From: a virus
DNA: 46,167 nucleotides
Reading direction: 5' to 3' (one strand)
IMG/VR virus record: IMGVR_UViG_3300030333_000746
Coordinates: 1 to 46,167 of that record
Part shown: positions 1,429 to 36,261 of the stretch, one piece after another
How the letters are laid out: each line of letters begins with the position of its first letter
Numbering within the stretch: position 1 is the first letter of the stretch
Notes under the pieces: generated by a model
Database searches by the model: none
What the model was told of the DNA's origin: nothing
What the model saw: only the letters and a program-made list of their open reading frames with translations
Position numbers and translations under genes: made by a program

Positions 1429-2418
1429 ATGGCTTATAATCAATCTGACCAATATTTTGAACCGTCTACGGATACTAACGCAAACTTTGCAAATTCCGTA
1501 TCGGGTCAAACAAACTCGTATTTCTTACCTGCAATTTATTCTAAAACTGTTTTAAACTTTTTTAGAAAATCATCTGTAGTAGAAGCAATTACTAATACAG
1601 ATTATGCGGGAGAGATTTCGGCATATGGTGATTCTGTAAGAATTATCAAAGAACCTGAAATTACTGTTTATCAGTATGAAAGGGGACAAGACGTAACTGC
1701 GACTAAGTTGACAGACCAAGAAATTAACTTGGTTGTTGATACAGCAAACGCATTTAAGTTTATCGTAGATGACATTGAAACTAATATGTCACACGTTAAC
1801 TTCCGTGACGTTGCTGCATCTTCAGCAGCTTATTCAATCAAAGATGCGTTTGATGAAGGTGTTCTTGCTACTATGTTTAGTGGTGTATCAGCTTCTAGCC
1901 CTAATCATATATTAGGTTCTGACAACGCAACTGATCTAGCAGCAGGTACTTTTGATGGTACTGGTAATCTAGATATAGGTTTTGCAGCTTCTGAGCATGA
2001 TCCTATTGATGTGCTTTCACACATGGCACGTTTATTGGACGAGCAAAATGTTCCAGAAGAAGGACGATGGTTCTGTGCAAATCCAGAGTTTTATGAGCAG
2101 CTTGTTCAAAGTAGCTCTAAGCTTCTATCTGTTGATTACAACGCAGGTCAAGGTTCAATCCGTAATGGACTAGTATCTTCTGGTAAATTGCGTGGATTTG
2201 ATATGTATAAGACTAACAATATAGCTGCTACTTCTAATGCAGCAGGTAAGTGTATTGCAGGTCATATGTCATCTACTGCAACTGCTCAGACTATTACTAG
2301 TACTGAAGTAATTCGTGATCCTGATAGCTTTGGTGATATAGTACGAGGTCTTCATGTATATGGAGCTAAAGTACTACGTCCAGAAGCATTAGTTTCTGCG
2401 TTCTACGGTATTGACTAA
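1429..2418 (+). CDS. Major capsid protein
   Basis: A 329-residue protein that should form the icosahedral shell. It looks like the HK97-fold coat proteins of T7-like marine podoviruses: an N-arm rich in Asn, Gln and Ser, then a region starting FLPAIYSKTVLNFFRKSSVV, a stretch on DSVRIIKEPEITVYQYERGQ and a conserved C-terminal segment GLHVYGAKVLRPEALVSAFY. It follows the scaffold gene after 20 nt, with GAGAGGA before the ATG. A strong hairpin with a short T stretch follows the stop, as after T7 gene 10, which fits a very highly expressed transcript. The family call is from recognition of the overall pattern and context. Confidence 0.88.
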   Translation: MAYNQSDQYFEPSTDTNANFANSVSGQTNSYFLPAIYSKTVLNFFRKSSVVEAITNTDYAGEISAYGDSVRIIKEPEITVYQYERGQDVTATKLTDQEINLVVDTANAFKFIVDDIETNMSHVNFRDVAASSAAYSIKDAFDEGVLATMFSGVSASSPNHILGSDNATDLAAGTFDGTGNLDIGFAASEHDPIDVLSHMARLLDEQNVPEEGRWFCANPEFYEQLVQSSSKLLSVDYNAGQGSIRNGLVSSGKLRGFDMYKTNNIAATSNAAGKCIAGHMSSTATAQTITSTEVIRDPDSFGDIVRGLHVYGAKVLRPEALVSAFYGID

Positions 2419-2426
2419 ATATTATT

Positions 2427-2449
2427 GGGGGCTGAAATATGCCCCCTTT
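2427..2449 (+). terminator. Terminator-like hairpin after the capsid gene
   Basis: A perfect 6-bp stem (GGGGGC at 2427-2432 and GCCCCC at 2441-2446) with an 8-nt loop is followed by TTT and an AT-rich stretch. The stem is strong but the T tract is short, so it is probably a leaky terminator or a 3'-end stabilising hairpin for capsid mRNA. It lies 9 nt after the capsid stop and 23 nt before the pqqA-like start, so expression of pqqA and the tail genes would depend on read-through. Confidence 0.65.
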
Positions 2450-2468
2450 AATTATGGAGGTAATTATT

Positions 2469-2540
2469 ATGTGGACTAAACCTACTTATGAAAATGTTAG
2501 ACTTGGTTTTGAAATCACAATGTATTACAGCAATAGGTAA
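2469..2540 (+). CDS. pqqA: PqqA-like pyrroloquinoline quinone precursor peptide
   Basis: A 23-codon gene whose product begins [15 protein letters not shown] and ends ITMYYSNR. This matches PqqA family peptides almost throughout: the W-[TK]-K-P start, the RLGFE centre and E-x3-Y with Glu15 and Tyr19. In known PQQ biosynthesis the radical SAM enzyme PqqE, with the chaperone PqqD, cross-links these two side chains, and PqqB, PqqC and a protease finish the cofactor. PQQ then serves periplasmic alcohol and sugar dehydrogenases. GGAGG at 2456-2460 lies 8 nt before this ATG, which decides the start over an in-frame ATG at 2454. No other pqq gene is visible in the window, so the host would have to supply the enzymes. 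The gene lies between capsid and tail genes, so late expression is likely. Confidence 0.88.
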
Positions 2541-2551
2541 GGAAATACAGT

Positions 2552-2692
2552 ATGCCACAAATAGGAAGTGAAAAAAATCCAGTACGGTTTAATGTTAATG
2601 GCAAAGTTAAAATTCGTGCTGCATATATGAAAGGTGAAGATAAAAAGAAATACGATAAAAATTATGATCGTATTTTTAAAAATCGTAAATAG
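2552..2692 (+). CDS. Small basic hypothetical protein
   Basis: A 46-residue lysine-rich protein starting MPQIGSEKNP and ending IFKNRK. It begins 12 nt after the pqqA-like stop, with AAGGAA upstream of its ATG, and ends 15 nt before the head-tail adaptor gene. Tight spacing and a coherent start support a real gene, although I do not recognise the family. It has no cysteine, signal peptide or membrane segment. It could be a minor head protein or a partner of the neighbouring peptide gene; neither is shown. Confidence 0.6.
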   Translation: MPQIGSEKNPVRFNVNGKVKIRAAYMKGEDKKKYDKNYDRIFKNRK

Positions 2693-2706: not shown

Positions 2707-3477
2707 ATGGCTACTACATTTCTACAACTAACCAATGAGTTACTTATAGAATTGAATGAGGTTCAACTTACCTCTTCTAATTTTGCAAGTGCGGTTGGAA
2801 TCCAACAACACGCTAAAGACTGCGTTAATCGTGCATACTTAGATATAGTTAACGAAGAACCTCAGTGGCCTTTTTTATCTGTAGGTGAAAGCGGTGCTAC
2901 CGATCCAATGTACGGAAATGTTTCTGTTGAAACAACAGCAGCAACTAGATGGTATGAATTAAAAGCAGCAAGTTCAGCATTAAAAGATGATTACTTGTCG
3001 ATAGATTGGGATAATTTTTATTTAACTACAGTAGGAGTCAGTGGTGAATCTGCTCCTTATGTTTCTAAGAATTTAAGTTTTGTAACTATAGAAGAATGGA
3101 AAGATTTTAGAAGGACTAGAGAAAATGCTGATGATGCAGATCAAGCTGTAGGTGGTGAACCCCGCCATGTAATAAGAAGTCCTGATGGTAGAAAGTTTGG
3201 ATTAAGTCCTATACCTGACAAAGCTTATAAGGTTTGGTATTTTGCATATGACTTACCAACACAACTATCAGCGTATGATGACGCTGTAGTTTTTCCAGAT
3301 GTTTACAAAACAGTAGTATTATCTAAAGCAAGATACTATGCACATCAGTTTAAGGATAACCCTCAAATGGCTGCATTTGCTTTAGAAGATTATAGAAAAG
3401 GCTTAAAGAGTATGAAAGAAAATCTTATAGGCCCAACACCAACTTATATATCTGACGATAGAATTAGGTATGTGTAA
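2707..3477 (+). CDS. Head-tail adaptor / tail tubular A-like protein
   Basis: A 256-residue protein resembling the tail tubular protein A (T7 gp11) and P22 gp4 type adaptors that bind below the portal and start the short tail. The N-terminal region (VNRAYLDIVNEEPQWPFL, about residues 41-58) has the typical helix with the Glu-Pro-Trp-Pro turn. The C-terminal half carries the Lys-rich helix KTVVLSKARYYAHQFKDNPQ. It follows the capsid cluster and its stop abuts the start of the hub gene at 3478, as expected for this role. Identity comes from motif and position. Confidence 0.7.
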   Translation: MATTFLQLTNELLIELNEVQLTSSNFASAVGIQQHAKDCVNRAYLDIVNEEPQWPFLSVGESGATDPMYGNVSVETTAATRWYELKAASSALKDDYLSIDWDNFYLTTVGVSGESAPYVSKNLSFVTIEEWKDFRRTRENADDADQAVGGEPRHVIRSPDGRKFGLSPIPDKAYKVWYFAYDLPTQLSAYDDAVVFPDVYKTVVLSKARYYAHQFKDNPQMAAFALEDYRKGLKSMKENLIGPTPTYISDDRIRYV

Positions 3478-26012: not shown

Positions 26013-27296
26013 ATGAGATATTTACTACTAGTTGGAGCTATGTTGTGTAGCTCTATGGCTCATGGAACACCTACTTATGTAGATGATGTAGCTGAAATAA
26101 TAAATAATAATTGTGTTGTGTGTCACCGTGATGGTGGCATAGGCCCAATGCAGTTTGAAACGTATGATCAAGTTAGACCGTGGAGTCCTTTGATACAACT
26201 TAAAGTTGCTAACAGAGAGATGCCTCCATATGCCTATGATCAGGGTATAGGAATACAAGAATTACATGGTGATTGGAGGCTCTCAGAGGCCGATATAGCC
26301 ACGATAGTAGAGTGGGTGGATGCCGGATCAGAGTATGGAAATACAGATGTTGTAGTACAACCTCCGGCCCTTTCAGACCCCGATCAGTGGAACTTCTACG
26401 AAGACTTTGGAGAACCTACAATGGTTATTCCTTCTACTCCTATAGATATACCTGCCAGTGGCAATGACCTATGGCACAAACATAATGTAGCTAGTGGATT
26501 GACAGAGGATAGATGTATTAAAGCTATCCAAGTTAAACCCAGAGGCGATGCTAAGAGTGTAGTGCATCATGCCAATAGCTCCGTTAATGTTGATGGTGAG
26601 AGGTATGGGATGCTGACAGAGTATGCTATGGGTAAGTGGGGTGAGATAGTACCTGAAGGTGTCTGTCGTACTATACCTGCTAACTCTGAGATAGCTTGGG
26701 ACATTCATATGTTTCCCGGTGGTTTAGGAGCTATAGCACCCGGAACTATTATTGAAGATAATGTTGTAGAAATAGGACTATGGCTATACTCTCCAGAGGA
26801 ATCTAAAGAACTTACATATACTCAAGACCTCAAGCTTTACAGAATAAGTGATCAAGATGATATTGTTATTCCTCCTCATGGTTATCACATGACTCAGGGA
26901 TTCCACTCCTTTGATCACCCTGTTCGCATTGATTCATGGCAACCTCACGGACACCTAAGAATGAATGCAGCAAGCTTTGAAATCTTTTACCCTGATACTG
27001 GAGTAACAGAGCAGATTAGTCAGGTATCTAACTGGAGTGCAACATGGCATCACAGTCACATCTATGATCCAGACTTTGCACCTTTGATTCCAACAGGGGC
27101 AGTACTGGTTCTTAAACAGTGGTACGACAACACTGAAGATAATCCTAACAACCCTGATGCAGATCAGTGGGTTTATGGAGGCAGTAGAACAGGAGATGAA
27201 ATGACTCATGCTTGGATAGCAGTAACTCATCTTGATGAAGAAGGTTATCAGGAAATGCTAACCGAAAGAAACAACAGGAGATTAGTAGCACAATGA
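26013..27296 (+). CDS. Secreted cytochrome c / PHM-like copper monooxygenase fusion
   Basis: A 427-residue protein with a Sec signal peptide (residues 1-18, cleaved near AHG). Next is a c-type heme domain with C34-V-V-C37-H38 and Met70 in a REMPPY motif as likely axial ligand. Then come two domains like the catalytic core of peptidylglycine hydroxylating and dopamine beta monooxygenases. Candidate CuH ligands are H185, H186 and H232. Candidate CuM ligands are H312 and H314 (QPHGHLRM) and M397 (GDEMTHAW). The family motif YDNTEDNPNNPDAD is at 371-384. These enzymes hydroxylate C-H bonds using O2 and two copper ions. Here heme c could replace ascorbate as electron donor (inference). GGAG lies 8 nt before the ATG. 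The gene is visibly more G+C-rich than its neighbours. The substrate is unknown. Confidence 0.82.
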   Translation: MRYLLLVGAMLCSSMAHGTPTYVDDVAEIINNNCVVCHRDGGIGPMQFETYDQVRPWSPLIQLKVANREMPPYAYDQGIGIQELHGDWRLSEADIATIVEWVDAGSEYGNTDVVVQPPALSDPDQWNFYEDFGEPTMVIPSTPIDIPASGNDLWHKHNVASGLTEDRCIKAIQVKPRGDAKSVVHHANSSVNVDGERYGMLTEYAMGKWGEIVPEGVCRTIPANSEIAWDIHMFPGGLGAIAPGTIIEDNVVEIGLWLYSPEESKELTYTQDLKLYRISDQDDIVIPPHGYHMTQGFHSFDHPVRIDSWQPHGHLRMNAASFEIFYPDTGVTEQISQVSNWSATWHHSHIYDPDFAPLIPTGAVLVLKQWYDNTEDNPNNPDADQWVYGGSRTGDEMTHAWIAVTHLDEEGYQEMLTERNNRRLVAQ

Positions 27297-27496
27297 GATA
27301 CTTACTTATTGCTTTAGTTATAACTGGTTGCAGTAGTTTGCCGGAAAGGTCTGCTCAAGATTGGGCCATGCAAGATGCCAGAAACCAAGATATTTTTATG
27401 CGTAATATTCCAAGCAATCAAAATATTTTAAACTTAGGTGGCTGTACTAATATTAATTATTGCAATATAGATAGGAGGATGATGGCAGGTCAATGA
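27293..27496 (+). CDS. Small lipoprotein, first of a related pair
   Basis: A 67-residue protein with a lipoprotein signal (MRYLLIALVITGC, Cys13 being the lipidation site) and a mature part rich in Asn, Asp and Gln. It ends with two cysteines, C51 and C57, in the segment GGCTNINYCNIDRR. It overlaps the upstream monooxygenase gene by 4 nt (ATGA), so the two are translationally coupled. Its mature part resembles that of the next gene. It could be an outer-membrane spanin partner or an accessory of the copper enzyme. The usual Pro-rich spanin pattern is missing. Confidence 0.65.
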   Translation: MRYLLIALVITGCSSLPERSAQDWAMQDARNQDIFMRNIPSNQNILNLGGCTNINYCNIDRRMMAGQ

Positions 27497-27675
27497 GAAG
27501 ACTATTAATAATAATTTTACTATCACTTACAGGATGTTCGTTAAGCGAAGTTAGTATGCAGATGTCAGATTATCCTGAGTGGAATTGGATGGATCAACAA
27601 TTATATATGCAAAACGTAAGGATTTGCAGAACTATGGATCACTGTGCTGCTGAAGATTTATTTAGAAGATATTAA
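27493..27675 (+). CDS. Small lipoprotein, second of a related pair
   Basis: A 60-residue protein with a lipoprotein signal (MRRLLIIILLSLTGC, Cys15). The mature part WNWMDQQLYMQNVRICRTMD, then HC, resembles the preceding lipoprotein (a Trp-x-Met helix, then [YF]-M-x-N, then two Cys six residues apart). It overlaps that gene by 4 nt. The pair looks like a tandem duplication. Both should be anchored in the envelope, facing the periplasm, close to where the copper/heme protein would act. Function is unknown; an outer-membrane spanin remains an alternative. Confidence 0.62.
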   Translation: MRRLLIIILLSLTGCSLSEVSMQMSDYPEWNWMDQQLYMQNVRICRTMDHCAAEDLFRRY

Positions 27676-33979: not shown

Positions 33980-34254
33980 TTTCTATGCCTCACAAATCTA
34001 CACTTGCGACTTTTAGAATTGTAATGTAAGTATTGCACATTTAGTTTTTTCTGTACATCTGTTTTTGATGCTAGTCTTCCATCCTTATAAGACTTAACAT
34101 CTATTAAAGTTATCTCTCCTTCTGGAGACATAGCCACAATATCTACAGGGCCAGTACACCCACAGTTTTTAAAAACATGATAGCCGTTATCCCATAGCCA
34201 TGTAATAGCATAATGTTCTGCTAGATCACCTACTCTACTTGGATTATGTTTCAT
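33967..34254 (-). CDS. Small PD-(D/E)XK endonuclease
   Basis: A 95-residue nuclease-like protein. The pattern is GDLAEHYAITWLWDNGYHVF with an acidic residue in the first helix (E13), then G-P-V-D37-I-V-A, then L-I-D-V-K-S (D52 and K54). This matches small PD-(D/E)XK proteins of the Holliday-junction-resolvase-like or VSR-like kind. CGC (31-33) is close to the active site. It overlaps its neighbours by 4 and 13 nt. The substrate is unknown; it may act with the other nucleases in host DNA breakdown or recombination. Confidence 0.7.
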   Translation of the reverse strand: MKHNPSRVGDLAEHYAITWLWDNGYHVFKNCGCTGPVDIVAMSPEGEITLIDVKSYKDGRLASKTDVQKKLNVQYLHYNSKSRKCRFVRHRKWMT

Positions 34255-34526
34255 AATACTAACCTGTATTTATAAAGTGTTCCCTTTATATGCTTTCTCT
34301 CTACTGTGTAACTACCAAATTTAGGCATTCGTAAGTTTCTCATACAGGCAGAAGCTCCTGAACCTGTCATTCCTACTTTCTTAGCCAGAGTCTCTAAGGT
34401 TATCCACTTTCCATCTTTCATAGCGTCATATATTTTTTGATGACTTCCTTTTAATTCGTTGCCTTCTATATCATAAGCCTTAGTAAACATCTCTACTTGA
34501 CTATTTAAATTATCAGTGTGTTTCAC
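34251..34526 (-). CDS. Small winged-helix DNA-binding protein
   Basis: A 91-residue protein with a helix-turn-helix-like stretch, WITLETLAKKVGMTGSGASA (about residues 41-60), followed by a beta wing ERKHIKGTLYKYRLVL. This looks like a winged-helix fold. It could regulate phage genes or act on the replication complex. It lies between the polymerase and nuclease genes, overlapping them by 14 and 4 nt, so it is produced in the middle phase. Only the fold is supported. Confidence 0.62.
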   Translation of the reverse strand: MKHTDNLNSQVEMFTKAYDIEGNELKGSHQKIYDAMKDGKWITLETLAKKVGMTGSGASACMRNLRMPKFGSYTVERKHIKGTLYKYRLVL

Positions 34527-36261
34527 TCCAGTTATCTCCTATATGATATTCACCATCTAAAGGACACTTCATGTCAAACTCAAGTCCCGCCTGTTGTATA
34601 GCTTTAACTCCTAACTTACCTACCTGCTGTGCATCTTTTTCAACTACTTCTATCTGCCATTCATCATGTATGTTAGCGACAAAGTGAGCATCAAGATTAT
34701 GTTCTATAATATATTGGTTTAAAAGTTCTAAAGCTTTCTTCATTACTATACTACCACCGCCCTGTAGTAAAGCATTAAGGGCTGAGTGTGCTGATCTAAT
34801 ATAAATCTTACGACCATCTAACCCTTTGATGAAGCCTTTTGCTGCTGCTCTCGTAACTCTGTTTTTAAGAGTTCTAAGTGATGGGAGATTATCAAGGAAA
34901 CGTTGTTTAAGTCTTTGACCATCTTGTTTGCTTCCTCCAACCACGCTTCCAATTTTTTCATTTCCCGCTCCGTATATGAAGGCGTATATAAAAGTTTTTG
35001 CCTGATTTCTAGATTTAAGTCCTGCAATTTTTTGATTAGCGGAGTGTATGTCTCCATGTAAAATTTCATCAGTGAACTCCTTGTCGTTCATATAATGTGC
35101 AAGCATCCTAAGTTCTAGCCCCGAAGCATCTATACCTACTAGGTTATAACCTTTGGGTACTATCCAACAAGCTCTACAATCTTTTCCATAAGGAGAGCTA
35201 GAACTAGGAACTTGTGCAAGGTTAGGTTCTCGATGAGTCATACGCCCTGTTATAGTTCCATTAGGATTAACAAAGCCATGAACTCTACCATCATCATCTG
35301 CATTATCTAACCAAGATTTAATTTGAGCTATACGTTTTTGGTACATCAAATAGTCAGCTATAAGTTTAGCTTGAGGTATAGAATCTATTCTTTTAAGAGT
35401 TGATTCATCTACAATAGGCTGACCAGTGGGAGTAAACTTACTAGGTTTCCAACCAAACTTCTGTAAGTATTCTCCTATTTGTTTTCTAGAACCTAGATTA
35501 AACTCTGTTCGACTAATTCTTGCGACTTGATCGTGAGCTTCTAAAGCATCGTACTCATCAGAGTTTAACCTATACTTAGTACCATCAGAAGCCACAGCCA
35601 TCCTAGATAGTTTACCTGCTTTAGTTTTAACAGGATAAAGAATTAAAGTATGTTCCTCTGGCTTAAATTCTTTATGTACTTCTGCAACTGTAGCATCTAA
35701 CTTATCTTTTAATGTAGCCAACAAAAGCGTAGCAAACTTAACATCTAACAAGAATCCCTTATCTCTTTGTTTAGTTAGTATACCTGCTATGCTTTGTTCT
35801 AAGTTTATAGAGTCTCTAGAAAACCCATGCTTCTCTTTACTCAAAGCATCATAAACTCTTTTGTTAAGTAATACATCTTGCTCACAATACTTAACCATAT
35901 CAATAGAGAATGTTTGGTAATCATTAAACTCTATCTTAGGACAATCTAATCTAAAACCCCAAGACTCAAGGCCATGATTACCTTCTCGTACTGGATTGAA
36001 TAATCTAGAAAGAACTAAAGTATCTATTAGTTTTTTGCCGGACAAATCAACGCCAGTAAGTTTCTTCAGTACAGGTATATCAAAACCTATAATGTTATGA
36101 CCTATAAGTTTATCAGCATCCTGTAATGCTTGAAGACCCTTATCAAGTTTGTCACCCCAATAAGAACAAACGTGTTCTGTATCGACATCACAGGTACTTA
36201 AACACCAAATCTTAGTGGCATTTAAGTCATCTGTTTCTATGTCAAATACTAAAGAGGTCAT
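34513..36261 (-). CDS. DNA polymerase, family A (T7-like)
   Basis: A 582-residue replicative polymerase, shorter than T7 gp5 (704). The 3'-5' exonuclease motifs are D7-I-E9, GHNIIGFD61 and Y125-x3-D129. Polymerase motif A is D378-A-S-G-L-E-L-R, motif B is K422-T-F-I-Y426-x4-YG, and motif C is H532-D533-E. Tyr426 equals E. coli position 762 and T7 Tyr526, a residue reported to be typical of virulent marine phages. There is no separate 5'-3' exonuclease domain. It overlaps the helicase gene by 4 nt. Like T7 it probably recruits host thioredoxin, but the thioredoxin-binding loop is not obvious. Confidence 0.95.
   Translation of the reverse strand: MTSLVFDIETDDLNATKIWCLSTCDVDTEHVCSYWGDKLDKGLQALQDADKLIGHNIIGFDIPVLKKLTGVDLSGKKLIDTLVLSRLFNPVREGNHGLESWGFRLDCPKIEFNDYQTFSIDMVKYCEQDVLLNKRVYDALSKEKHGFSRDSINLEQSIAGILTKQRDKGFLLDVKFATLLLATLKDKLDATVAEVHKEFKPEEHTLILYPVKTKAGKLSRMAVASDGTKYRLNSDEYDALEAHDQVARISRTEFNLGSRKQIGEYLQKFGWKPSKFTPTGQPIVDESTLKRIDSIPQAKLIADYLMYQKRIAQIKSWLDNADDDGRVHGFVNPNGTITGRMTHREPNLAQVPSSSSPYGKDCRACWIVPKGYNLVGIDASGLELRMLAHYMNDKEFTDEILHGDIHSANQKIAGLKSRNQAKTFIYAFIYGAGNEKIGSVVGGSKQDGQRLKQRFLDNLPSLRTLKNRVTRAAAKGFIKGLDGRKIYIRSAHSALNALLQGGGSIVMKKALELLNQYIIEHNLDAHFVANIHDEWQIEVVEKDAQQVGKLGVKAIQQAGLEFDMKCPLDGEYHIGDNWSETH

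Follow-up and report, generated by a model that had tools for sequence, protein, structure and literature searches.

Synthesis of PQQ begins when PqqE cross-links a Glu and a Tyr of PqqA held by PqqD, and the leader of PqqA is thought to be the part to which PqqD binds (PMC10906245). The precursor gene is not confined to bacteria. A viral pqqA was reported in 2020 in the Lake Baikal methylotroph virus VP_266 (PMC7678222), and pqqA also appears in a virome list of reservoir viruses (PMC13188868), which answers the question, left undecided in the initial annotation, whether phage pqqA had been described. Viral pqqA is thus already known; what is new in the open-licence literature searched is its breadth, the gap in its annotation and its link to Pseudohongiella. 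VP_266 and the phage analysed here are alike in that both encode pqqA and in the role proposed for it, a boost of PQQ for host dehydrogenases. However, pqqA of VP_266 was reported together with a viral methanol dehydrogenase and with methylotroph hosts, whereas the present gene stands without a PQQ enzyme in a podovirus of the HMO-2011 type whose predicted host is Pseudohongiella-like. The cultured methylotroph phages Venkman, P19250A, MEP301, MEP401/402 and Melnitz also carry a solitary 23-aa PqqA preceded by a ribosome-binding site, but theirs is of another sequence type (e.g. MWTKPSATEMRFGFEVTMYVMNK) and is found in other phage groups and at other loci.

The window, that is, the whole 46,167-nt stretch of virus record IMGVR_UViG_3300030333_000746 that we analysed, contains a frame whose product resembles PqqA of PQQ-producing bacteria (PF08042/TIGR02107) in length, whole profile, Glu-x3-Tyr pair and N-terminal leader. 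It differs from the bacterial genes in that a phage genome carries it, among structural genes and without pqqB-E (Table 1). Both family models are covered in full, with 39.4 bits against a cut-off of 21.1 for Pfam PF08042 (E=5.4e-10) and 44.2 bits against a cut-off of 20 for the NCBIfam equivalog TIGR02107 (E=1.1e-11). Glu15 and Tyr19 are both present at the E-x3-Y spacing, and the combination of 23 aa with a ribosome-binding site is that of the family. The usual, though not obligatory, pqqB-E neighbourhood is missing: phage genes lie on either side, and no pqqE model occurs among the 25 listed of the 67 NCBIfam families matched by the 58 window proteins. The initial annotation had read all of this from the letters, namely a PqqA pattern from end to end, the residue pair, the GGAGG site at a suitable distance, a position between capsid and tail genes and the lack of a PQQ pathway of its own, and each of these readings stood, with the addition of a small gene ahead of the tail gene. 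Neither PHROGs nor the solved structures offered a match to the peptide. Because it has no PHROGs match and is too short for a search for relatives, related pqqA genes were sought by degenerate DNA patterns. The profile scores, an identical peptide in near-complete relatives and conservation in unrelated phages exclude a chance match; judged from its sequence, the frame is a phage-borne, full-length PqqA gene.

Table 1. Features of the pqqA locus and of the cytochrome/monooxygenase locus in the window
Feature	Position	Strand	Remarks
Major capsid protein gene, HMO-2011-type, upstream neighbour	1429..2418	+	phrog_267 E=4e-70
Terminator-like hairpin GGGGGC-N8-GCCCCC, then TTT, behind capsid gene	2427..2446	+	
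Ribosome-binding site GGAGG	2456..2460	+	8 nt before pqqA ATG
pqqA, 23-aa PQQ precursor peptide	2469..2540	+	24 codons = 23 aa + TAA; profile matches
46-aa conserved small gene (MPQIGSE...), downstream neighbour of pqqA	2552..2692	+	
Tail protein gene	2707..3477	+	phrog_10775 E=4e-68
Putative exported protein, 427 aa, c-type cytochrome motif + PHM-like copper monooxygenase fold	26013..27296	+	
Two small putative lipoproteins after cytochrome/monooxygenase gene	27293..27675	+	

The capsid protein of the window phage, a marine bacterial virus, is 59% identical to that of the pelagiphage HTVC115P, 49% to that of HTVC103P and 44% to that of the Puniceispirillum phage HMO-2011, and DNA polymerase A, a primase/helicase and a class I ribonucleotide reductase are also encoded. 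With the capsid and replication genes of the group present, the phage fits an HMO-2011-type podovirus. Comparison at the same locus, a check proposed at the outset, revealed that pqqA is not fixed there. The gene stands just behind the capsid gene in only 6 of 80 environmental loci with an 87–97% identical capsid protein, a few of these 80 ending before the pqqA site, and the six represent two sequence types, that of the window and a MKWSKPTYQKLRLGFEVTMYFKQV-like one. The near-complete relatives G041-G043 (52–53 kb) encode a peptide identical to the window PqqA, with synonymous differences only. Since most close relatives lack pqqA at this site, the gene is dispensable. The hairpin behind the capsid gene is kept in relatives both with and without pqqA, which locates pqqA just downstream of it. 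In relatives without pqqA the 46-aa small gene comes directly after the capsid gene, and in the alignment, from which the G043 row was left out because a wrong stretch had been aligned, they pass from the hairpin straight into the ribosome-binding site of the small gene; pqqA is therefore a clean insert. A site resembling a promoter upstream of the capsid gene was discarded, as it overlaps the capsid start codon and such sites are equally frequent in shuffles. In another relative (L017), the slot of pqqA is filled by a small Cys-rich frame (MSCTNKSCECKHCTCK), and the site behind the capsid gene may thus be a cargo spot.

How widespread is the gene in viruses? In the IMG/VR pattern scans, whose counts are lower bounds and give no estimate of frequency, 79 of the 80 matches listed from the first scan were short PqqA-like frames; the candidate L154 was rejected as a chance match within a 147-aa frame. 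Among the N-terminal-pattern matches listed, all distinct complete peptides have 23 aa, an RBS-like motif precedes 187 of 188 matches, and E15 and Y19 are kept, without a single loss, in 187 of 187 complete frames, one N-terminal pattern requiring neither residue and part of the loci coming from patterns that do. Neither an insignificant profile match nor a loss of Glu15 or Tyr19 where the gene is present, two outcomes that the initial annotation had named as refuting, was observed. Over 149 distinct pqqA sequences, pN/pS is about 0.32 when the codons fixed by the search pattern are excluded, and the core F-E-[VI]-T-[ML]-Y hardly varies. Viral pqqA is under purifying selection. This conservation bears on the idea that the phage peptide is a decoy, which would occupy PqqD/PqqE or jam host PQQ synthesis by its excess. 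The leader (WTKP...RLG) is intact and binding is to be expected, but a decoy could do without the cross-link residues, and their retention in every complete frame listed, together with the near-invariant core, makes it very unlikely.

The carriers are diverse, comprising T4-like, jumbo and HMO-2011-type phages and several groups of cultured methylotroph phages. T4-type capsid genes were found in 13 of the 50 records searched, and pqqA carriers with such a capsid include G071, G093, G094, G112, G118 and G145 (148–356 kb). A bacterial origin was rejected for the 340-kb contig L407, where a T4 gp23 capsid gene identifies a phage. L309 (PBPT01000016.1, 335 kb) is filed under a Neomarinimicrobiota MAG; it encodes a clamp-loader-like ATPase, ThyX and PhoH, its bin contains pqqA and lacks pqqE, and from this gene content it looks like jumbo-phage DNA. 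Among 50 sampled viral pqqA records, pqqE was found in none and a PQQ alcohol dehydrogenase in one. In the record of L248 (G146, 34049-35731), viral pqqA is accompanied by a near-full PQQ-dependent alcohol dehydrogenase. Could pqqA then be a neutral fragment of host DNA, captured recently and without a role? Its almost complete identity to a host gene and its sporadic presence next to the capsid gene would suit this explanation. Nevertheless, the site holds only the pqqA frame and its own ribosome-binding site, without pqqB, which lies beside pqqA in both host genes examined (L435 and L438), and purifying selection in so many phage groups is not expected of a passenger, which we accordingly consider improbable.

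Why has pqqA escaped notice in cultured phages? A tblastn search of PqqA against 50,697 phage records returned 12 matches, of which nine are in phages of Methylophilales/Methylophilaceae, one is in an uncultured spring genome and two are in 'Acinetobacter phage' contigs. The latter two were not accepted as phages: the one opened, CAKLQF020000010.1 (L460), which is filed as Acinetobacter phage MD-2021a, carries ppk and pqqBCDE and is a bacterial contig, and the other has the same name. Mislabelled bacterial contigs aside, all cultured-phage matches with a known host are methylotroph phages. The methanol dehydrogenases of methylotrophs require PQQ. When a region of MEP301 was used as a DNA query, the pqqA spot was the sole stretch that it had in common with Venkman, P19250A and MEP401/402. 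The prediction that so short a gene would be easily missed proved right, as pqqA is annotated in none of the seven phage records examined (Venkman, ctXG6705, MEP402, P19250A, MEP301, Melnitz-1 and MEP401). In Melnitz-1 and ctXG6705 a frame on the opposite strand is called in its place, and in the other Melnitz records the feature under the match is named 'hypothetical protein'. Nor did a text search find phage pqqA mentioned in the publications that describe MEP301, Melnitz, Venkman and MEP401/402.

Two genes of the window, pqqA and the gene of the 427-aa protein, point to the same type of host. Window pqqA is identical at 68 of 72 nt to pqqA of the Pseudohongiella single-cell genome G023, and of the four differences three are synonymous and one changes Tyr to Phe outside the cross-link pair, so that the two peptides differ by one residue; the G023 peptide is also encoded in a second genome, G025. 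With this similarity and its absence from most close relatives, pqqA is a host-gene homologue outside the viral core. In four genomes, the Pseudohongiella single-cell genome included, pqqA is followed about 1.5 kb downstream by pqqE. A near-identical pqqA in this setting makes a Pseudohongiella-like gammaproteobacterium the likely host of the window phage, and this host likely, though not provenly, possesses the PQQ pathway. Between 4 and 30 PQQ alcohol dehydrogenases per genome occur in 34 of 35 host-type genomes; pqqE was found in only 4 of 39, many of which are incomplete assemblies, and any benefit would therefore be restricted to pathway-bearing hosts if the true host is among these. The Pseudohongiella-type genomes G002-G039 contain many PQQ alcohol dehydrogenases, mostly without pqqE or pqqA, and those with 4–30 of these enzymes are possible PQQ scavengers. 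The closeness to the host peptide also bears on another end use, in which host PqqE would cross-link the phage peptide for a purpose other than PQQ, e.g. as a signalling or exclusion peptide. Nearly all viral pqqA records are orphans without a PQQ enzyme, and a metagenome study lists, as co-expressed with defence systems, a RiPP family annotated as PqqA (PMC11118758), both of which would agree with such a use. We give it little credence, since the window peptide is a single residue away from host PqqA, outside the cross-link pair, and the cultured matches are limited to methylotroph phages.

The 427-aa protein carries a CVVCH haem motif and shares 66–77% identity with proteins from genomes of Pseudohongiella and further Pseudomonadales. 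No solved structure matches it by sequence, and its cytochrome Pfam match is below the cut-off. Its predicted fold has a mean pLDDT of 73.7, the cytochrome part being poorly modelled, and the model finds its best PDB matches in peptidylglycine alpha-hydroxylating monooxygenases, at 14% identity and a Foldseek E of 9e-11, the TM-score being near 0.42 by query and 0.56 by target. The model thus points to a putative exported protein in which a c-type cytochrome motif is combined with a copper monooxygenase fold like that of PHM. Genes of this kind are common to the window phage, jumbo phages and Pseudohongiella-type bacteria. In L309 such a gene is followed by two lipoproteins and then, near by, by pqqA, and in L407 two genes of this type precede pqqA. 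Among the HMO-2011-type relatives tested, G041-G043 have both the cytochrome/monooxygenase gene and pqqA and five (38–52 kb) have neither; the three carriers may be one clade. Of 50 viral records bearing the cytochrome gene, many of them fragments, 10 also contain pqqA. A functional link between the two genes is possible from this co-occurrence.

Taken together, we consider it probable that pqqA is a functional auxiliary metabolic gene, which would supply PqqA to host PqqD/PqqE and so raise PQQ for host dehydrogenases in infection. Supply of the precursor is the simplest reading of a peptide that has kept its cross-link residues and lies one residue from the host type. The gene may have come from a Pseudohongiella-like gammaproteobacterium or by exchange among phages of such hosts. 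Transcription in the late structural region would reach it either by running through the hairpin behind the capsid gene or by starting at another promoter. Host PqqD would then bind the leader of the phage peptide, host PqqE would cross-link Glu15 to Tyr19, and a host protease, PqqB and PqqC would complete PQQ. The cofactor would load periplasmic PQQ-dependent alcohol dehydrogenases of the host and thereby sustain electron flow into the respiratory chain during infection. We infer expression, processing, the rise in PQQ and the benefit to the phage. Overexpression of pqqAB in Acetobacter pasteurianus increased PQQ by 29%, and that of the whole operon about eightfold (PMC7936290); by analogy, the former offers a precedent that an extra precursor gene can raise PQQ. 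Against precursor supply, PqqA may not be limiting for PQQ in these hosts, and transcription of pqqA must pass the terminator-like hairpin.

The presence of pqqA in methylotroph phages, as well as in many unrelated phages from the environment, suggests that supplementing PQQ during infection is widespread among viruses. More tentatively, at somewhat less than an even chance, we propose that solitary pqqA is a general, overlooked gene of phages infecting PQQ-dependent bacteria, in which small podoviruses, T4-like and jumbo phages would repeatedly gain only the precursor peptide and use it to drive a cofactor pathway of the host. With Pseudohongiella-like hosts, pqqA would travel in the company of an exported copper monooxygenase of the cytochrome c/PHM type, the two making up a periplasmic redox package. 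Because cultured methylotroph phages carry unannotated pqqA, phage-host pairs already available allow an immediate test of this idea. If it is true, a 72-base gene missed by standard annotation would mark phages of PQQ-dependent bacteria, pqqA would serve as a clue to host metabolism for uncultured viruses, and viruses would steer a host cofactor pathway by supplying its ribosomal precursor only.
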